Assembly (NCBI GenBank): GCA_029959295.1
Contig: JASCOH010000002.1
Span: forward strand, 62,001-126,000
From: Flavobacteriaceae bacterium PS02334
Lineage (GTDB): Bacteria; Bacteroidota; Bacteroidia; Flavobacteriales; Flavobacteriaceae
Reading direction: 5' to 3'
Length of the DNA: 64,000 nt
A model generated the notes under the pieces. It had not been told where the DNA came from. It did not search any database and saw nothing but the letters and a program-made list of their open reading frames with translations. A program made the translations under genes and the position numbers. Below are positions 5,172 to 14,010 of the stretch, piece by piece; within the stretch, counting starts at the first letter, position 1, and every line of letters starts with the position of its first letter.

Positions 5172-5642
5172 CTACAGCATCCCCTGGTCCGCAAAGGAAT
5201 AATATCCTTCGGTAGTAAGAATCAAGTGGTCCAGCAGCGGAATTTCCAGAATCCTGCCGGCATCCTTCACTTTTTTCGTGATGTCCCGGTCGGCCTGGCT
5301 GGGTGCAAGCGTGCCGGAAGGATGGTTGTGCGCCATGATGATGCCTGACGCATTGGCCTTCAGTGCTGCCGCAAAGATCAGCCTCACGTCGGCCACGGTG
5401 CCAGTTGTACCTCCGGTGGACAGTTCATACTGCCCGAGGACCCTGTTGCTGCGGCTCAGGAGCAGTACCTTGAACTGCTCTATGAATTCAATCTTGTCAG
5501 GATTCCAGCCTGCCAGCAGAATTTCGAAAGCCGTGGCCGACGAGCTTACCTGAGGGCGCTGCGACGGCCTGATCGCCGTCCTGTAGACCAGTTCAATTTC
5601 TGATACTATTTTCCATTTGTCTGATGCTGTTAACGTTTCCAT
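5172..5642 (-). CDS. RadC-type JAB/MPN domain protein
   Basis: The 156-aa protein is the short, accessory form of RadC. It carries the JAMM metal-binding signature HNHPSG (His105, His107) with Asp118 about ten residues later, as in metal-dependent JAB proteases and deubiquitinase-like folds. The helix-hairpin-helix part of chromosomal RadC is missing. Short RadC proteins are typical of Bacteroidota conjugative or integrative elements and may help replication or restriction evasion; their role is not settled. The gene is GC-richer than the hipBST module beside it, matching the integrase gene. Confidence 0.85.
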   Translation of the reverse strand: METLTASDKWKIVSEIELVYRTAIRPSQRPQVSSSATAFEILLAGWNPDKIEFIEQFKVLLLSRSNRVLGQYELSTGGTTGTVADVRLIFAAALKANASGIIMAHNHPSGTLAPSQADRDITKKVKDAGRILEIPLLDHLILTTEGYYSFADQGML

Positions 5643-5970: not shown

Positions 5971-5994
5971 AAAAGTGCGTTTTGATGCACTTTT
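5971..5994. promoter_or_regulatory. Operator-like site O1 of hipBST
   Basis: AAAAGTGC (5971-5978) and GCACTTTT (5987-5994) are perfect arms separated by 8 bp. It is the most distant of three sites sharing the TGC-N8-GC core before hipB. Confidence 0.65.
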
Positions 5995-6029
5995 CAAGAC
6001 TTCTTTTCTCTTATAATCTTTTAAATTCC

Positions 6030-6055
6030 AAATAGTGCTTTTTAATGCTCTATTT
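6030..6055. promoter_or_regulatory. Operator-like site O2 of hipBST
   Basis: AAATAGTGC (6030-6038) and GCTCTATTT (6047-6055) pair with a single mismatch around an 8-bp spacer. The site is centred 60 bp from O1 and borders the predicted -33 element. Confidence 0.65.
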
Positions 6056-6056
6056 G

Positions 6057-6086
6057 TTGTAACATAAAAAAATAGTTTTATATTTG
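6057..6086 (+). promoter_or_regulatory. hipBST promoter
   Basis: TTG at 6057-6059, a 19-bp spacer and TATATTTG at 6079-6086 give a full match to the Bacteroidota consensus. It lies between operator-like sites O2 and O3, so a bound repressor would block it. Confidence 0.65.
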
Positions 6087-6090
6087 TGTT

Positions 6091-6116
6091 AAATAATGCT
6101 ATATAATGCACTTTAT
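6091..6116. promoter_or_regulatory. Operator-like site O3 overlapping the hipB start
   Basis: TGC (6097-6099), an 8-bp spacer and GCA (6108-6110) repeat the core of O1 and O2; flanking pairing is weaker. The site is centred 61 bp from O2 and covers the hipB start codon (6106). Confidence 0.5.
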
Positions 6117-6327
6117 AGAAATCATAAAAACCATCAAGGAGCGCAGGGAAGTTTTGCAAGTGACACAAGAGACCTTGGCAGAACTATCGGGAGTTGGCTT
6201 GCGGACCTTGAAACAGCTTGAAAGCGGAAAAGGAAATCCAACGTTGCTAACCTTGCAGAAAGTAGCCGACGTATTAGGTATGGAAGTTTGTTTAAAGTTA
6301 AAACGATTGGTAAATGAGAAGCGCTAA
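6106..6327 (+). CDS. hipB: HipB-like antitoxin, XRE-family HTH
   Basis: The 73-aa protein is essentially one XRE helix-turn-helix (TQETLAELSGVGLRTLKQLE, about residues 20-39, then LLTLQKVADVLG). It is the expected DNA-binding antitoxin and autorepressor of a hip module. Three inverted-repeat sites precede it. Its end overlaps the next gene by 14 bp, implying translational coupling. The start at 6106 lies only 20 bp behind the -7 box, which is normal for leader-poor Bacteroidota genes. Confidence 0.88.
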   Translation: MHFIEIIKTIKERREVLQVTQETLAELSGVGLRTLKQLESGKGNPTLLTLQKVADVLGMEVCLKLKRLVNEKR

Positions 6328-6646
6328 AATACTATTTAAAAATGAGGAGGCTGGAATTTTAATCCAGCATGATGATGCGTCGTTTAGCTTTCGTTATCAT
6401 GATGCGTGGTTTGCCAACGAGAATAAACCCGGAATTAGTCTGGGTTTGCCTAAAGTGAAGCAGGAGTATCAGTCGCAGTATCTTTTTCCTTTTTTTTATA
6501 ATCTACTGCCTGAGGGTTCTAACAAACAGGTTGTTTGTAAATTAAATAAAATTGACCGTAACGATTATTTTGGCTTGTTGCTTACCACTGCCAAGAATGA
6601 CAGCATAGGAGCTGTACGCGTTATTGAAATAGCACAGAAAGTATAA
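6314..6646 (+). CDS. hipS: HipS-like protein: detached N-terminal subdomain of HipA
   Basis: The 110-aa protein matches the N-terminal subdomain of HipA kinases (ISLGLPKVKQ, then FPFFYNLLPEGSNKQ and DYFGLLLTTAKNDSIGAVRV). In classical hipBA systems this is residues 1 to about 100 of HipA. In the E. coli O127 hipBST system the detached piece, HipS, acts as the antitoxin. Here it is a separate gene between hipB and the kinase, overlapping hipB by 14 bp and leaving 16 bp before hipT. The reading frame differs from the kinase and each has its own ATG, so this looks like a true split rather than a recent frameshift. Confidence 0.82.
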   Translation: MRSAKILFKNEEAGILIQHDDASFSFRYHDAWFANENKPGISLGLPKVKQEYQSQYLFPFFYNLLPEGSNKQVVCKLNKIDRNDYFGLLLTTAKNDSIGAVRVIEIAQKV

Positions 6647-6662
6647 ACTACAGTCGATATTT

Positions 6663-7676
6663 ATGAAAGCAAAAGATATAGTAACCCATAACGATTTGTT
6701 GCCTTTTACACATTGCCCAGGAACATTAGCCAGCGGGTTTTACACCTATAGCAAAACCGCCTTGAACAGAGTGTTCCAAGGTAAAAAAGTACATCATATT
6801 TTGCCTTATGTTTCTCCTGCTTCTAATGCCGAAACAGATGCTCTGTTTGAAGAAAACCGAAGACAGATGTCTATATCTGGCGTTCAAGAAAAATTTTCTG
6901 TTCTCCTTGAAAAAAACAAACTGCGGCTAATAGCTGAAAATGAACAAGGCAGCTATATATTAAAACCTATTCCTGCTGCCGGAAAAAAACCAGATCAAAT
7001 GCCTGCTAATGAACATTTAACCATGCAAATTGCCCGTCAATTGTATGGTATAGATACAGCGGAAAACGCAATGATTTTTTTCCAAGATGGCACTCCTGCC
7101 TATATCACTAAACGATTTGATGTCCGAAGCGATGGTTCAAAATCAGCTCAAGAAGATTTTGCCTCTTTGGCACAGCGAACACCGCAAACACATGGTACTG
7201 ATTACAAATATTTAGGTAACTATTTAGAACTGTTTGAGTTGATGCAGCGCCATTTGCCAACTTATAAAATAGAAGCTCCCAAGCTATTAAAATTATTGGT
7301 GTTTAATTATCTTTTTTCAAATGGAGACGCTCATTTTAAAAATTTTTCTGTTATTGAAACTTCAATGGGCGACTATCGTTTGAGTCCTGCTTATGATTTG
7401 CTTAATAGTCGTATTCACATAGACGATAAAGATTTTGCGTTGAATGATGGCTTATTGCCTAAAAATTTAGCCCAAGGTAAAATAGGTTTGCAATTTGCCA
7501 AATTAGCGGAACAGGCCGGAATTGGCGAGAAGAATTTTAAAGCCATTATGGAATTGATGCTCTCTAAATCTGATTTGGTTGAAAAAATGGTAGCAGCTTC
7601 TTTTTTGAATACTGCTACTAAACGGAATTATTTACAGTCTTATCAGTGGCGATTGAAACAGCTGGCAAAGGCGTGA
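6663..7676 (+). CDS. hipT: HipT-like serine/threonine kinase toxin
   Basis: The 337-aa protein contains the HipA kinase core. The flexible SISGVQEKFSVLL loop (70-82) holds candidate autophosphorylated serines, Lys101 lies in the nucleotide pocket, the catalytic NGDAHFKNF is at 220-228 (Asp222, Asn227) and the metal-binding SPAYDLLN places Asp245. HipA-type toxins phosphorylate an aminoacyl-tRNA synthetase (GltX for HipA, TrpS for HipT) and arrest growth. The target here cannot be told from sequence. HipS plus HipT together equal the length of a full HipA (about 440 aa). Confidence 0.85.
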   Translation: MKAKDIVTHNDLLPFTHCPGTLASGFYTYSKTALNRVFQGKKVHHILPYVSPASNAETDALFEENRRQMSISGVQEKFSVLLEKNKLRLIAENEQGSYILKPIPAAGKKPDQMPANEHLTMQIARQLYGIDTAENAMIFFQDGTPAYITKRFDVRSDGSKSAQEDFASLAQRTPQTHGTDYKYLGNYLELFELMQRHLPTYKIEAPKLLKLLVFNYLFSNGDAHFKNFSVIETSMGDYRLSPAYDLLNSRIHIDDKDFALNDGLLPKNLAQGKIGLQFAKLAEQAGIGEKNFKAIMELMLSKSDLVEKMVAASFLNTATKRNYLQSYQWRLKQLAKA

Positions 7677-7917
7677 TAGGTTGTTTTTGATAAAACTTTT
7701 TTTTGCCAGGTTGGATCATTGTAACTCATAAGCATAAATGTATGTGGAGGAATGATAGCTGGAAGAGTAGGAATAAATAGAGATGCTTAGGCGTGAGTTT
7801 GTTATCGATGCTTAATTAGAGGTTAAAATTTGAGATATTTTAAATTCATAAGTAGTTTTACGTTAATTGTCTCGTAGATTTGCTTGTCAAATATAATTTT
7901 AACTAAGAGTATATGTA

Positions 7918-10050
7918 ATGAAAATCAAAACTGTAGAAATTAAAAATTTCAGATTATTGAGAGATACGAAGATTTCTCTCGAAGAGTATACCACAGTAAT
8001 TGTAGGACGTAATAACTCAGGTAAAACTTCTTTAACTGAAATATTTCGAAGGCTATTTGGTAGCAAGTCAGGGTTTTCAATTCACGACTTCAGTATTGAA
8101 TCTCTCGAAGGCTTTAAAAAAGCACTTGCAGAAAAACTTGCTGGTAAAAGCGATGAAAATATTCGAATGGTTATACCAGCTATCGAAATAAAAATAACAA
8201 TAGAATATCCAAAGGATGCGCCTGATCTTGGTGCGCTGGGTGATTTTGTTATTGATCTTAATCCTGCAAGCAATTTAGCTGTTATCATAGTTCAGTACAC
8301 ATTAAAAAATGGTAAGATTGATTATCTTTTTGACGGTATTACTGATGAGGGTGAGGAAAGTATCAAAGCCTTCATGCGTGCTCTCAAAGAAAAGATTCCT
8401 GCACTTTTTGAGATTAGGATTTTTGCACAAGACCCGAACGATGCAAGTAATATGCTTTCAATGGAGCACTCAAAATTACGCTCAGTCATAGGAGCGGGAT
8501 TCGTAAATGCACAACGTGGGCTAGATGATGAGACACATACTGAGAAAGATGTCCTTGGTAGGGTTTTGGCTCAACTATTTGATACGTCAAAATCAGAAAC
8601 TGCACCTCCTGATATGAAGGAGAAGTCGGATGCATTGCAAAAAGTTGTCGGAGATATTCAAGCGACTGTTGATACAGACTTTAATGGACAGTTAAACAAC
8701 CTTCTTCCTGCATTAGCCTTGTTTGGTTTCCCAAGTATTGCTGATTCCAAGTTAAGCACTGAGACCACCATTGATGTCGCAAATATTTTAAGTAGTCATA
8801 CTAAGGTTAGGTACGAGCATTCAGGTTTTGTCTATCTTCCAGAAACTTACAACGGATTGGGAACACGAAATCTTATTTACATCTTGTTTCAACTATATGA
8901 ATTTTTCAGAGCTTATCAGAGCAGGGCATCTGTAAACAGTTTAGATATTATTTTTATAGAAGAGCCCGAAGCTCACCTGCATCCGCAGATGCAACAAGTA
9001 TTTATTGCAAAATTGCATGAAATTGCTAAGCAGTTTTCGGATAAGTTCAATGATAAGAAACCTTGGCCTGTTCAGTTTGTAGTTACAACGCACTCCACTC
9101 ACATTGCTAATGAAGCACCATTTGAAGCAATACGATATTTTTTAACAACTACGAATGGATATCGGAAAACAACTATAAAAGATCTTCGTGTCGAATTTAG
9201 TGATACTGGATTGAAGCCCGACAAAGAGTTTTTGCACAAGTATCTTACGTTAACAAAATGCGATCTATATTTCGCTGATAAAGCGATATTAATTGAAGGA
9301 ACGGCAGAAAGATTAATGATGCCGATTCTTATTCAAAAAAGCGATGCTTTAGATACCGATAATCAACAACTTGCACAACAGTATTTGACAATTATAGAGG
9401 TAGGTGGTGCCTATGCACATCATTTTTACAAATTCCTAGATTTTCTTGATTTAAGATGTCTAGTAATTACTGATTTGGATTCTATCGCTCGTACAGAAGG
9501 AGAAAGAATTACTTATCCTGCTTCAATCGCATCACGAGGTACGCATACATCAAATGCAGGTATAAAGAATTGGTTTTCACCTGCAACGGAAGGATATTAT
9601 GAACTCGCTACTTGCATAGCAAATACCGAAGAACATAAAGTTGTCGGTTCACGCAGAATTGCATTCCAAATTCCAGAAGATGAGCTCGTTGGAACAGGAA
9701 GAAGTTTGGAAGAGGCGATTTTTTTAGCCAATAGAGATAAATTTGCCATTGTTGGTGCTACAGCTGAAGAAGTAGAGGAAATCGCTGATAGACTTGCGCC
9801 ATCAAATAATCAAAAAGCAGACTTTGCATTACGTCACGCGCTCGATGACAAAGAGTGGAGTGCGCCAAAGTATATAATTCAAGGTTTGCAATGGCTCGCC
9901 CAGAATCCTGTTTTAAATGTAGTAGCTCCTATGGTTCCGGAATCGTTACCAGAACATTCGCTTGAAGCGCCAGTTTCACTTGCAGTATCAGTTGCTTTGA
10001 ATAATGTTGGAACTACGTCTGACGAATTAAATGTCGCAAAAGAATTGTAA
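7918..10050 (+). CDS. gajA: GajA-like OLD family ATPase/TOPRIM nuclease (Gabija)
   Basis: The 710-aa protein has an ABC-type ATPase head with Walker A GRNNSGKTS (30-38), an IIFIEEPEAHLHP Walker B/signature segment (344-356) and TTHSTH (390-395). A TOPRIM domain follows, with IEGTAE (459-464) and ITDLDS (517-522), and a GTGRSLEEAIFLAN motif near 592-605. This order defines OLD nucleases. A UvrD-type helicase gene overlapping the 3-prime end makes it class 2, the Gabija layout. GajA nicks DNA when nucleotide pools fall during phage infection. It is longer than the Bacillus cereus protein (578 aa), mainly between the Walker motifs. Composition is AT-rich, unlike the flanking integrase. Confidence 0.85.
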   Translation: MKIKTVEIKNFRLLRDTKISLEEYTTVIVGRNNSGKTSLTEIFRRLFGSKSGFSIHDFSIESLEGFKKALAEKLAGKSDENIRMVIPAIEIKITIEYPKDAPDLGALGDFVIDLNPASNLAVIIVQYTLKNGKIDYLFDGITDEGEESIKAFMRALKEKIPALFEIRIFAQDPNDASNMLSMEHSKLRSVIGAGFVNAQRGLDDETHTEKDVLGRVLAQLFDTSKSETAPPDMKEKSDALQKVVGDIQATVDTDFNGQLNNLLPALALFGFPSIADSKLSTETTIDVANILSSHTKVRYEHSGFVYLPETYNGLGTRNLIYILFQLYEFFRAYQSRASVNSLDIIFIEEPEAHLHPQMQQVFIAKLHEIAKQFSDKFNDKKPWPVQFVVTTHSTHIANEAPFEAIRYFLTTTNGYRKTTIKDLRVEFSDTGLKPDKEFLHKYLTLTKCDLYFADKAILIEGTAERLMMPILIQKSDALDTDNQQLAQQYLTIIEVGGAYAHHFYKFLDFLDLRCLVITDLDSIARTEGERITYPASIASRGTHTSNAGIKNWFSPATEGYYELATCIANTEEHKVVGSRRIAFQIPEDELVGTGRSLEEAIFLANRDKFAIVGATAEEVEEIADRLAPSNNQKADFALRHALDDKEWSAPKYIIQGLQWLAQNPVLNVVAPMVPESLPEHSLEAPVSLAVSVALNNVGTTSDELNVAKEL

Positions 10051-11818
10051 AATGGAACAACAGCTACAAGAAATTAATCCGGCAGAAAAAGCATCTATAG
10101 AGTGTATTAACAAAGTCTATGAAGCTATCGACCAAAACCTGAGCTTCCGTGTTGAAGCTGGCGCTGGTGCAGGTAAAACATATACTCTAATAAAAGCACT
10201 TAAACATCTCATAAAAAAGTACGAGGGTGAGTTTATAAAGAACCACAAGAAAATTGTCTGTATAACGTATACGAATGTTGCAAAAGATGAAATTCAATCA
10301 CGCGTTGACAGCCATCCGATTATTGTCGCAGATACGATTCACGCTTTTGCGTGGCAAGTGATACAATGTTTTCAGCAACCCTTGCGCGATAGGATGAGCG
10401 AATTAGATGGAGATTGGGAAGAAAGAATAAAACAAGCTGGTGGAGTAAATAAGCAAAAAGTTAAGTATGATCTTGGTTATCCTAAAATAACCACAGATGA
10501 AATTTACCTTCACCACAACGATATTATAAAACTATTTGCATCACTAATCCGTGATGACAAATTCAGAAGGATTTTCTCGAGTAAATATCCTGTAGTTTTG
10601 ATAGATGAGTATCAGGATACAAATAGAGGCCTTGCTGATGCGATAGTTGAAACATTTATTGAGACTCAAAGCGGTTCAAGAATTGGGCTGTTTGGAGATC
10701 ACTGGCAAAAAATATACGGTTCTGAAGCTTGCGGATTAATTGAAGCTGATGCTGATAAATTGATAGTTATTGGTAAAGAGGCAAATTTCAGGTCAGACAA
10801 AAATATTGTAACCGTTCTGAATAGAATGCGTCCAGAGCTACCCCAACAGGAGTGTGATCCGAATTCTCAAGGAGATGTAGTAGTCTACCATACAAATGAT
10901 TGGCAAGGTATTCGTCGCTCGCCAGGGCCGGGCGGACATTGGGGGGGTGACCTACCTGCACAGCAAGCTCATAATTATTTGGAAATTACTAAAGACAAGC
11001 TTAACCATAAGGGCTGGAACATTTCACCTGATACTACAAAAATTCTAATGCTGACTAATAATGTCTTAGCTTCAGAACAAGGCTATCAGACAATAAATAG
11101 CACCTTTAGATATAATGACGACTATTTGAAATTGAATGACCCATATATGGATTTTTTGGTAAGTACTATCGAAGTTGGAGCGGAAGCATTTCGTGAGCAG
11201 AAGTATGGAGCAATGCTTGATGCATTTGGATTAAGGACAGTCAAAATTAGAACCCATGCTGATAAAGAAGTGTGGCAGGATAATATGGCGAGATTAGAGG
11301 AAGTTAGAAACAACGGAACCATTGGCAATGTTATCGACTTATTAAAGGTCACTAAAAGACCACGACTCTCTCCAAAATTGGAGGAGAAAGAAGCGAGGTT
11401 TGAGGGAATTAGTAAAATCGATACTGCTGATCGCGATGAAGACGATAGAAATTTTTTTGAAAAGACAAGTCGCATTCGATCTATTCCTTATAAAGAAATA
11501 CCAAACCTTTCGGCCTATATAAATGATCAAACCCTATATTCAACAAAACATGGTGTTAAAGGTGCTGAATTTGAAAATGTAATTGTTGTGCTTGGCCGGG
11601 GTTGGAATCACTATAATTGGAGCTCATTTCTTGAAAAGATAGATCAAGCAAATGTTGCCGAAGATGATAGAGATACTTTTGAAAGAAATAGAAATTTATT
11701 CTATGTGGCTTGTTCTCGCCCACGGAAGCGACTCTGCTTACTGTTTACTCAAGAATTATCTGTGAGCGCTATGGAAGGTTTGCGAGAATTGTTTGGCGAC
11801 ACTATTAATATTGCTTAA
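10031..11818 (+). CDS. gajB: GajB-like UvrD/REP-family helicase (Gabija)
   Basis: The 595-aa protein shows superfamily 1A helicase motifs in order: I AGAGAGKT (43-50), Ia ITYTNVAKDEI (78-88), II VVLIDEYQDT (188-197), III GLFGDHWQKIYG, V STKHGVKGAEFENVIVV and VI FYVACSRPRKRL near the end. GajB senses DNA ends made by GajA and hydrolyses (d)A/GTP. It overlaps gajA by 20 bp. A second ATG at 10052 (Met8), just after the gajA stop, is an equally possible start. The accessory 2B domain is short, as in other GajB proteins. Confidence 0.85.
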   Translation: MSQKNCKMEQQLQEINPAEKASIECINKVYEAIDQNLSFRVEAGAGAGKTYTLIKALKHLIKKYEGEFIKNHKKIVCITYTNVAKDEIQSRVDSHPIIVADTIHAFAWQVIQCFQQPLRDRMSELDGDWEERIKQAGGVNKQKVKYDLGYPKITTDEIYLHHNDIIKLFASLIRDDKFRRIFSSKYPVVLIDEYQDTNRGLADAIVETFIETQSGSRIGLFGDHWQKIYGSEACGLIEADADKLIVIGKEANFRSDKNIVTVLNRMRPELPQQECDPNSQGDVVVYHTNDWQGIRRSPGPGGHWGGDLPAQQAHNYLEITKDKLNHKGWNISPDTTKILMLTNNVLASEQGYQTINSTFRYNDDYLKLNDPYMDFLVSTIEVGAEAFREQKYGAMLDAFGLRTVKIRTHADKEVWQDNMARLEEVRNNGTIGNVIDLLKVTKRPRLSPKLEEKEARFEGISKIDTADRDEDDRNFFEKTSRIRSIPYKEIPNLSAYINDQTLYSTKHGVKGAEFENVIVVLGRGWNHYNWSSFLEKIDQANVAEDDRDTFERNRNLFYVACSRPRKRLCLLFTQELSVSAMEGLRELFGDTINIA

Positions 11819-11924
11819 TTTTTCCAAGCAGTGTTTTAAAATTTTCATTGTCTGAAAAATAAGTTTGATTTCTTTGGAGCTATTGGAATTAGAAATGAAG
11901 TTTTGATTAAATTATTAATATTAC

Positions 11925-12905
11925 ATGCAAAAATATTTAACTACGGTTTTTGTTTTATTCTTTTTCGTATCAGTAAGGTGTGAAGCTCAGGATACTTTGA
12001 AAGTGAAAATATCTGATAGTGTCGTGCTTACTAAAGAACAGTTGGCACCTAAAGAAAATGTACACATCTATTTCCGCGACCGTGCACAAAACAATTATTT
12101 TAAAGATGTACTACCAATTATTACTTTGCTCTTAGGTATATTTCTTAATCGCGGATGGGATAAATTGGAAAAAAGACGGCAGTCTAAAAAGCACGCTCAA
12201 CGTTGGAGGGATGAGCTGGAGCTTTTAAGAGCGCCTTTAGAATCACAAATTGATGCGTGTAATAAATTTCTTGTAGAGCTTAAAGCAAGCAATTCTAAGG
12301 TTCCAAATATAACTACGCATTTTACATTACAATGCCTTGCTTTCGATGCGTTGGATAAATCGGAATTCATTCGATATCTTGAAGCTTTTAAAGGTGATCA
12401 TACAACAGCAGTGAGAATTGCTGGTAGCGTTAATGTGTTAATTCTAGCACTTAAAAACAATCGAAAAATTTTTGATGAAAGACTCCAAAGTTTTATAAGT
12501 AGTGTCTCATCACATACCTTAGAACTAAGACATGCTCTTCATGATTTCGGGCAGAGCTTACAAAATTACATGATCGAGCGTGAAAGGGCTAAAGACGATC
12601 AAAACAATCCTCACGTCATCGCGTTATGGTTGTTGTTTGAAGAATACATAGAGCAGTATCAGAAGCACTCTGTTTACGATATTGATAAACTTGAAAAAGA
12701 ATTTGTTCCCAAATATTTCATTATAGGAGACAATCTGCGATTAGATTACCGTTTAGCACCAATCACAGCAACAGTTCAAAATGTCTTCACCGCTACTCAA
12801 AACCTAAAGAACAACAGGTTTTATATTGAGAATAATATTGAGGGTGTAATAGAAAGATATGTAGAATCTAGCAGTAACCTCGAAAATATTTTGAAAGAAT
12901 TGTAG
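11925..12905 (+). CDS. Unrecognised membrane-anchored protein next to Gabija
   Basis: I do not recognise the family. The 326-aa protein has a signal peptide (about 1-22, ending CEAQ), a short exported stretch, one transmembrane segment (61-77, VLPIITLLLGIFLNRGW) followed by Lys/Arg-rich residues, and a mostly helical region of about 245 aa predicted to face the cytoplasm. There are no Walker, nuclease or peptidase motifs. It follows the helicase gene by 106 bp on the same strand and shares its low GC content, so it belongs to the same cargo block. A membrane-bound accessory or independent defence protein is possible but unproven. Confidence 0.65.
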   Translation: MQKYLTTVFVLFFFVSVRCEAQDTLKVKISDSVVLTKEQLAPKENVHIYFRDRAQNNYFKDVLPIITLLLGIFLNRGWDKLEKRRQSKKHAQRWRDELELLRAPLESQIDACNKFLVELKASNSKVPNITTHFTLQCLAFDALDKSEFIRYLEAFKGDHTTAVRIAGSVNVLILALKNNRKIFDERLQSFISSVSSHTLELRHALHDFGQSLQNYMIERERAKDDQNNPHVIALWLLFEEYIEQYQKHSVYDIDKLEKEFVPKYFIIGDNLRLDYRLAPITATVQNVFTATQNLKNNRFYIENNIEGVIERYVESSSNLENILKEL

Positions 12906-13021
12906 ATAATATAATTCGGTAAGTTGCCAGGGTAGAAAGTCAACAAGTGGTAATAAGGTTGAGAAATGTAACTATTAAATAGTTGAAGATAGCACTAAAT
13001 ACTAAACTAATTATAAATAAA

Positions 13022-13546
13022 ATGAATGACGGAGATTTTGTAAGATATGAAGGTGACTCTACTTCATTAGACCCACTTAGAAGAAATGAAACAATTGCTA
13101 AAATTATTTCATCAGTAAAAAATGAAGATGAGTGGAGGGTTCTTTTAGAAGTAAATGCTTCGGAAAGTATCTCATGCCCAATCAATTTTGTGCGTCCTAT
13201 TAGCACAGATAAAATACACCTGAAGCGTTTAGGTTTTGAAGAAATTGTTGTTGATGATAAAAAAAGGTACGTAAATAATCTTGGGATTACAATATCAGGT
13301 ATGGGTGGTGGAATAACTATTGGTAATAACACATCATACTTTGTCACAGGATATTGCTTAGGAGACCTCACTAATATCAAAAATACTGAAATGCAAAATT
13401 ATATAAATAATGAGGGATTTGATAAAAATGCATTTAATATGGTCTACCCGAATCTGAATAATATAAATAGCGTGTTTAGAGTTCTTGAAGAGAATGGGGT
13501 GGTTTTTGATAAAAGAGAAATCTTAGATGTGTTGAAAATTAGATAA
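13022..13546 (+). CDS. Unrecognised 174-aa cytoplasmic protein
   Basis: No family is recognised. I prefer the ATG at 13022 (MNDGDFVRYEG) to the upstream start at 12983, because the first 13 residues of the longer form look like translated leader. The protein has a beta-rich first half with a KIHLKRLGFEEI segment and a Gly-rich ITISGMGGGITIGN turn, and a helical C-terminus. No signal peptide or membrane segment is present. It is the last plus-strand gene of the Gabija block. Confidence 0.55.
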   Translation: MNDGDFVRYEGDSTSLDPLRRNETIAKIISSVKNEDEWRVLLEVNASESISCPINFVRPISTDKIHLKRLGFEEIVVDDKKRYVNNLGITISGMGGGITIGNNTSYFVTGYCLGDLTNIKNTEMQNYINNEGFDKNAFNMVYPNLNNINSVFRVLEENGVVFDKREILDVLKIR

Positions 13547-14010
13547 TAAAAGAAGTCACCGTGAAAGGAACTTTTAGTTAATATTCTTTAGAAATAAGCT
13601 ACAGTGGATTAAAAGTGGTACTACAAGAGAATGAATCTGCTGCACTAATAGTGGCCACTTGTGCCAGAGCTATGTATTTAAATTGCATTCAAAATTAGGT
13701 AACTATATACATGTTTACGGCTTTTTAGATTGATTGCAAAAAAAGCCCCAAAATTTACCGAGATTAAGGGGAGCATGCAAATCAGTGAACAGACTTGTAT
13801 TTGCTTTTTCCTGAATTGTAACAAAAATTTCCTAGCAGTAGGATGAATCTATCAAAACAGGAATAATTGAAAAGGATATTTCACATAATACCCCCGATTC
13901 GATTTTGAAACTTTTTTTTATAATTTAAAAATTTTGGAGATTTATAAAATTTATGAACTGTGCACAGTTTCAAAAGCAAATATAGCAATCTTTAAAAGGT
14001 ATTGTAAAAA
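13547..14010. other. AT-rich non-coding region between cargo and integration genes
   Basis: No credible gene is seen. It holds a perfect 14-bp palindrome AACTGTGCACAGTT (13956-13969) and an inverted pair TTTTGAAAC (13903-13911)/GTTTCAAAA (13967-13975). The boundary between AT-rich defence cargo and GC-richer recombination genes falls here. Confidence 0.5.

Follow-up and report, generated by a model that had tools for sequence, protein, structure and literature searches.

Evenly spaced operator-like dyads ahead of hipBST in a Flavobacteriaceae genome and their pitch across Bacteroidota

The nearest known counterpart of the locus reported here is the HipBST toxin-antitoxin system of Legionella pneumophila (HipBST-Lp), which has three evenly spaced operators, each of 18 nt, separated by 53-bp gaps, or about 71 bp from centre to centre (PMC10653801). 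Legionella HipB binds each of the three operators in gel shifts, and HipT, alone or with HipS, joins the HipB-DNA complex (PMC10653801). The shifts obtained with HipB are stepwise, which the authors contrast with the cooperative binding of HipBA (PMC10653801). The same paper terms its operators the first for HipBST and mentions relatives across the FCB group, and the available part of its text describes no operators from Bacteroidota (PMC10653801). The HipBST system of E. coli O127 (HipBST-Ec) resembles the present one in its tripartite make-up, in the SIS loop of HipT and in the repression of the promoter by HipB, which is predicted here (PMC10627512). Its complex, in which a dimer of HipB carries two HipST arms, spans up to 135 Å in the crystal and 200 Å in solution, where the hexamers roughly pair and are modelled about 80 Å apart; the accessible portion of that paper contains no operator array (PMC10627512). 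In E. coli K-12, the hipBA operon has four TATCC-N8-GGATA sites at spacings of 28, 39 and 28 bp.

The window analyzed here is a 64,000-nucleotide stretch of the genome of Flavobacteriaceae bacterium PS02334, and the features of its hip locus are as follows.

5971-5994, no strand: candidate operator O1, AAAAGTGC-N8-GCACTTTT, centre 5982.5, perfect 8-bp arms
6031-6054, no strand: candidate operator O2, AATAGTGC-N8-GCTCTATT, centre 6042.5, directly before the -33-like element
6057-6059, plus strand: putative -33-like element TTG, weak, 19 bp ahead of the -7 element; TTG is common in aligned loci
6079-6086, plus strand: putative -7 element TATATTTG of the Bacteroidota form TAnnTTTG, with a predicted transcript start at about 6091
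6092-6115, no strand: candidate operator O3, AATAATGC-N8-GCACTTTA, centre 6103.5, overlapping the hipB start codon
6106-6327, plus strand: hipB, 73 aa, encoding an HTH_3 repressor expected to read O1-O3
6314-6646, plus strand: hipS, predicted antitoxin of 110 aa consisting of a stand-alone HipA N-terminal domain
6663-7676, plus strand: hipT, predicted toxin of 337 aa, a HipA C-terminal kinase lacking N-subdomain 1

The hipB product has three PDB matches, HipB(Lp) 8ezt among them (E 6e-5). The hipS product matches Couple_hipA (E 1.7e-19), TIGR03071 (E 3.6e-27) and HipS(Lp) (E 1.7e-11), and the hipT product matches HipA_C (E 8.7e-40). Its closest solved structures are 7vkb (E 4.2e-27), followed by HipT(Lp) 8ezr (E 4.9e-27). 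The match of the hipT product to structure 7ab3, which we take to be the E. coli O127 system, is weaker (E 7.2e-13) and sets the window apart from HipBST-Ec. Couple_hipA is confined to the 110-aa protein and HipA_C to the 337-aa protein, so HipA N-subdomain 1 is encoded apart, and the genes stand in the order hipB, hipS, hipT, as in the HipBST tripartite toxin-antitoxin. In systems of that type HipT phosphorylates a tRNA synthetase and is neutralised by HipS. An earlier reading of this DNA made from its letters alone (the sequence-only reading) had proposed a split hip module, and the separation of the HipS and HipT domains and the gene order bear it out. The Gly-rich SIS loop of HipT (S70 I71 S72) and the kinase motifs (N220 G221 D222 A223 H224, and D245) are invariant in 9/9 aligned HipT proteins. 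Judged by these matches, the module is a HipB-HipS-HipT tripartite system, sequence-nearest to the Legionella type.

O1-O3 occupy the stretch that separates hipB from a radC-like gene (5172-5642, minus strand), and all are inverted repeats of the form AGTGC-N8-GCACT or near it. The centres of O1 and O2 are 60 bp apart and those of O2 and O3 61 bp. A repeat finder places all three in one 26-nt repeat family with start-to-start distances of 60 and 61; the spacers between the sites are dissimilar, and the repeat is restricted to the 26 nt. A triple of TGC-N8-GC(A/T) sites with both gaps at 58-63 bp occurs once in the window, in 0/200 dinucleotide shuffles of the window and in 1/20,000 shuffles of the intergenic stretch upstream of hipB, and is therefore not ascribed to chance. 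Three evenly spaced dyads before hipB are thus confirmed. The sequence-only reading had described three such inverted repeats at these spacings, the first with perfect 8-bp arms and the last over the start codon, and each of these statements agrees with the letters: the arms of 5971-5994 are perfect, and the hipB start (6106-6108) lies inside O3. Across the whole genome, the two-site pattern AGTGC-N8-GC, 46-50 bp, TGC-N8-GC matches both adjacent pairs of O1-O3 and one other place, and its reversed control has 0 matches. Single sites with up to one mismatch show no clear excess, at 62 per strand compared with 49 in the reversed control, and a regulon beyond the hipBST operon was dropped on these counts.

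The locus shares with HipBST-Lp its gene order, a stand-alone HipS and three evenly spaced upstream operators (PMC10653801, PMC9325769), and the Legionella HipT is the nearest in sequence of the systems compared. The two differ in pitch, which is about 71 bp in Legionella and 60-61 bp in the window, so that the window lies outside the Legionella spacing, and in position, since the nearest Legionella operator lies 24 nt ahead of the start codon and O3 lies over it (PMC10653801). The recognition helix of Legionella HipB differs from that of the window; the arrays are compared here by spacing and position. E. coli K-12 HipBA resembles the window in autorepression by HipB dimers, which is predicted here, in having several dyads and in the 8-bp spacer; it differs in that HipA is fused and the sites read TATCC-N8-GGATA, as opposed to a split HipS and HipT and AGTGC-N8-GCACT-like sites in the window.

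Close relatives were collected by a HipT scan of a contig collection covering 84,980 species (45 loci) and by a genome search (four loci, one of them the window). A readable hipB upstream region was available for 47 of these 49 loci; the two left out have no HipB or HipS found (L075) or a contig that begins within hipB (L067), and 26 loci with weaker HipB (L005-L030) were excluded from the analysis. The AGTGC motif, which defines family A, is present in 43/47 regions, and its O2-O3 spacing is 61 bp in 41 of the 43 and 60 bp in the other two. The sequence-only reading had proposed aligning homologous upstream regions and would have given way if pairs at about 60 bp were missing from them; all 43 have such a pair. 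A third site (O1) is found in 36 of the 43 loci, 60-62 bp from O2 in 34/36: the O1-O2 spacing is 61 bp in 23 loci, 62 bp in six, 60 bp in five, 71 bp in L004 and 69 bp in L056. One locus (L057) has a fourth site another 62 bp upstream. The other four regions carry TCACATTATAATGTGA-type sites (L071-L073) or GCAATATATTGC (L074) and, despite these non-AGTGC motifs, each has two sites 61 bp apart. L074 also contains, at about -240 to -160 of hipB, several TTGTTGATAATTATCAACAA-like inverted repeats in 22- and 44-bp steps, which are unrelated to its HipB-like sites at -62 and -1.

For a wider survey, HipT was searched in 395 Bacteroidota genomes, 81 of which had a match, and in 299 genomes from the genus of the window, 86 of which did. 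Of the 96 and 102 matches listed, 80 and 80 were examined. The remaining 16 and 22 matches were set aside before their upstream regions were seen, one place was common to both examined sets, and 100 sequence stretches supplied part of the examined loci. Loci with too little upstream sequence (L111, L132) and repeats of the same places (L076 and L110, equal to L001 and L004) were dropped, leaving a final sample of 47 + 55 + 100 = 202 hipB upstream regions, nearly all from Bacteroidota. Some loci in different collections are perhaps from the same species (e.g. L106 and L039), and counts are therefore also given by 82 HipB clusters at 80% identity. A HipS-like open reading frame accompanies 155/155 loci of the later set, in one case as a 41-aa fragment only. 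In one genome (G306) HipT has four matches, of which two resemble the window and two are distant.

The upstream regions were compared with 40 dinucleotide shuffles per locus in a motif-free search for any matching pair of dyads 30-110 bp apart, a range blind to 27-bp pairs. The best pair exceeds all 40 shuffles in 153/202 loci. The spacings of the passing loci are 60-62 bp (63 loci), 69-73 bp (38), 39-41 bp (37), 79-82 bp (12, twice 40) and 43-44 bp (three), which places 150/153 at 39-41, 60-62, 69-73 or 79-82 bp, and none of the 153 is spaced at 45-59 or 63-68 bp. The best pairs of the 49 non-passing loci are more scattered (e.g. 33, 48, 52, 59, 67, 78 and 105 bp). In a control within the hipB and hipS coding sequence, 3/202 pass, at 54, 107 and 110 bp, and in shuffled upstream regions the best pairs fall outside the spacing classes in 509/606 cases. 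Family-matrix scans, which reached down to 14 bp, found no 27-bp pairs in hipBST upstream regions. Overall, an array is present in 197/202 loci, and 196/197 lie within three pitch classes. The five loci with no array seen are L093, L094, L095, L181 and L210; the L210 region is truncated, and at L093 and L181 good pairs, at 60 and 72 bp, do not exceed all the shuffles. By cluster, 34 of the 82 are four-turn, 29 six-turn and 13 seven-turn, one is mixed, one has a 144-bp gap and four have no array. Four operators at equal pitch were seen in L057, L081, L089, L172, L178, L183, L214, L222, L228 and L230-L234.

The operator letters vary with the HipB family. Family A (HipB helix LRTLKQ, AGTGC sites) has 93/95 gaps at 60-62 bp and family B (NTLYK, TCACA) 29/29; family C (RFVRD, TATACC) has 131/131 at 39-41 bp; and family D (GKTT, TTACYG) has 70/72 at 69-73 bp, the others being 61 bp (L103) and 144 bp (L168, twice 72). 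The family matrices were trained on the same loci, which makes them circular for the motif but not for the spacing. A fifth motif, TATATGC, goes with a VALTVIRK-type helix and has 42/42 gaps at 39-41 bp in 21/21 loci, and seven loci with other HipB types have best pairs at 40, 60, 60, 61, 61, 70 and 71 bp. Two loci (L195, L196) have HipB frames of about 143 aa with a C-terminal extension unlike other HipB proteins. Family D shares the 71-bp class with Legionella, and its HipB helix (GVGKT) is similar. At least five operator sequences thus accompany different HipB families while the spacing is limited to three values. That the letters follow the HipB family is as expected if these are operators of HipB, as the sequence-only reading had assumed.

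The three classes, 39-41, 60-62 and 69-73 bp, have means of 40.4, 61.0 and 71.0 bp; taken as 4, 6 and 7 turns, these means give a line of slope 10.2 bp and intercept -0.3. Over 69 HipB clusters the best common period is 10.2 bp, with 10.0 to 10.5 giving a nearly equal fit, and gaps within a locus are equal within 2 bp in 145/147 loci with at least three sites. The phasing near six turns pointed out in the sequence-only reading is upheld by the other hipBST families, which lie at about four or seven turns. Its further suggestion, that dimers on one face might bridge or loop the promoter, is a conjecture. At 10.5 bp per turn, successive sites would be about 55-85 degrees off per step and not aligned, which counts against a common face; the spacing varies by 1 bp in both directions, or about 35 degrees, so that exact facing is not required. 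A five-turn array of about 51 bp was found in none of the hipBST loci examined, and its absence is unexplained by pure phasing.

The even spacing may instead have been inherited, from an ancestral array or by tandem duplication, and be without function, with HipB binding each site independently. The stepwise gel shifts of Legionella HipB (PMC10653801) fit independent binding, as does the way in which the pitch class tracks the HipB family with only about five changes. On a tree of HipB and HipS from 82 representatives, which is weakly resolved (13/79 inner branches starred), the class changes at least five times, counting L004, which departs in just one of its two gaps. Mere inheritance is nevertheless unlikely. 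The inter-site spacers of the window are unlike outside the 26-nt repeat, which argues against duplication. The O2-O3 spacing is held at 60-61 bp over HipB proteins of 62-100% identity, and the pitch is still 60-62 bp where the motif has been replaced. Departures from the family pitch come in steps of about 10 bp, to 71 bp in L004, 69 bp in L056, 61 bp in L103, 70 bp in L091 and 71 bp in L098.

The promoter was sought with the Bacteroidota -7 element because a sigma-70 scan was uninformative (10 sites against a shuffle mean of 7.3). The Bacteroidota -7 consensus is TAnnTTTG, with the transcript start 4-5 nt downstream, and the -33 consensus, TTTG, is weak in F. johnsoniae (PMC6847099). In 36/51 family-A loci, a TAnnTTTG element ends 18 bp upstream of the centre of O3. 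An element near O3 is found in only 6/16 loci of family B, 12/62 of family C and 5/38 of family D; where it ends 8 bp before the O3 centre in family C (11/62), the difference from family A is a 10-bp step. This placement raises the possibility that the geometry of promoter and polymerase sets the spacing, with O2 and O3 flanking the core promoter and O1 accidental, and in family A both the -7 element and the -33-like TTG do lie between O2 and O3. The equal O1-O2 spacing in 34/36 loci, in a segment with no conserved promoter element by eye, argues against it, and the 40- and 71-bp pitches of other families are unsuited to one fixed promoter length; this explanation is highly improbable. A divergent promoter read by O1 was also considered and dropped, the O1-O2 consensus of 21 loci having no conserved -7 element by eye.

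The aligned family-A starts (n=53) read ATGCAC in 45 loci and ACGCAC in three, with ATGCAT, TTGCAC, ATACAC, ATTGCC and TCAGAA once each; where the letters are ACGCAC, TTGCAC or ATACAC, the actual hipB start may be shifted. Codon 2 is CAC at 50/53 of these starts. Among other His codons CAC accounts for 85/379 (1/25 in HipB and 84/354 in the longest downstream frame), a control drawn from the first set (44 family-A loci) with the longest downstream frame taken as hipT. In L064, L065 and L069 an ATG stands one codon upstream (ATG ACG CAC), and the operator half-site GCAC is unmoved. The start-codon letters (Met-His) thus seem to be fixed by the reading of the DNA through O3 and not by a need of the protein. 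The dyads might also act as RNA hairpins or be bound by a different regulator. Their arms are able to pair in RNA, and O3 takes in the leader and the hipB start codon. O1 and O2 are upstream of the predicted transcript start, however, and the motif varies with the HipB family, which speaks against hairpins and against another regulator; hairpins were set aside for these reasons, and either possibility is exceedingly improbable. A consensus fold of the O1 stretches was uninformative, since 7/8 stretches lack the outer arm and the four remaining pairs are invariant.

Fused hipA was found at 13 loci in 296 Bacteroidota genomes, with a hipB for 11 of them. These loci resemble the window in having an HTH repressor and several operator-like dyads. 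In 8/11 loci the four best dyad pairs include one at 27 bp, but only 2/11 (L264, L266) exceed all 40 shuffles; at another locus (L272) a 50-bp pair is slightly below the shuffle maximum. A 27-bp pitch for Bacteroidota fused hipBA is suggested by these dyads but not proven. Among plasmid records (904 in all), seven of the 40 HipT hits listed were examined, of which an Azospirillum locus (L258) was dropped for want of a HipA N-terminal neighbour. With 100 shuffles as reference, the Flammeovirga and B. thetaiotaomicron plasmid loci have pairs at 61 bp (score 20 against shuffle maxima of 15 and 16). On an Arcobacter cloacae plasmid (Campylobacterota), two sites with a further, different sequence stand 61 bp apart (17 against a maximum of 16), and a Runella plasmid (L259) has a 61-bp pair with a score of 16, equal to the maximum. 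The scores of a Hymenobacter plasmid (L260; 41/82 bp, 16 against 21) and a B. finegoldii plasmid (L257; 41 bp, 16 against 17) are below the maximum. Phage records gave a single weak HipT match.

The arrangement is probably one in which HipB operators hold HipBST complexes in register around the promoter. At the window locus, we infer from the sequence comparisons that HipB is the binder of O1-O3, that it represses its own hipBST operon and that complexes cooperate. A Bacteroidota promoter would lie between O2 and O3, with its -33-like element after O2 and its transcript start at the O3 edge, and polymerase would be obstructed by HipB dimers at these two sites, O1 serving as an auxiliary site one pitch further upstream. 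The pitch of about 61 bp, as six helical turns, would set HipB dimers and their HipS-HipT arms in register on one DNA face, where adjacent HipB2S2T2 complexes might touch or otherwise cooperate across the pitch. Repression would thereby depend on the amount of HipST bound, and selection would keep the pitch at whole turns as HipB and its operator letters change together.

At a rough 3.3 Å per bp, pitches of 40, 61 and 71 bp correspond to about 134, 200 and 234 Å. Neighbouring complexes could therefore meet at the shorter pitch, and the longer ones would need bending or extension. The pairs of E. coli hexamers, as described in the available text, are modelled about 80 Å apart in solution, less than the 134-234 Å between sites, which counts against contact (PMC10627512). 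HipB alone may not be cooperative, given the stepwise Legionella gel shifts (PMC10653801). A fuller model is offered tentatively, with somewhat less than even confidence: a regular, one-faced ladder of HipB2S2T2 complexes that would bring about HipBST repression and sense the HipST:HipB ratio, in which the complex sets a pitch evolving by whole turns (four, six or seven), the operator letters are free to change and, in families A and B, the last rung lies over the hipB start.

hipBST is followed immediately, in the same orientation, by a Gabija anti-phage pair (7918-11818; GajA E 1.3e-267, GajB E 5.5e-244). The GC content is 0.31-0.39 at 6001-14000, compared with 0.39-0.53 leftward and, on the right, 0.43 immediately outside and 0.37-0.40 farther out, and the radC-like gene is at the left edge of this low-GC stretch. 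The segment 6001-14000 may be an acquired island carrying hipBST and Gabija.

The sequence-only reading knew of no description of this operator type in Bacteroidota, and no report of HipB operator arrays in this phylum was found in the open-licence literature on HipBST or HipB operators and antitoxin operator spacing. Evenly spaced triple HipB operators as a kind, which that reading did not mention, are already known from Legionella HipBST (PMC10653801). What is new, as judged from upstream sequence, is their presence in 197/202 hipBST upstream regions, with variable letters and a pitch in three classes. The result provides a catalogue that pairs HipB recognition helices with operator sequences. 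It turns a single Legionella observation into a testable rule for Bacteroidota hipBST, that of a constant helical pitch with variable operator letters. This pitch is unlike the spacing of E. coli hipBA, and its constancy points to possible contact among toxin-antitoxin complexes bound at the promoter.
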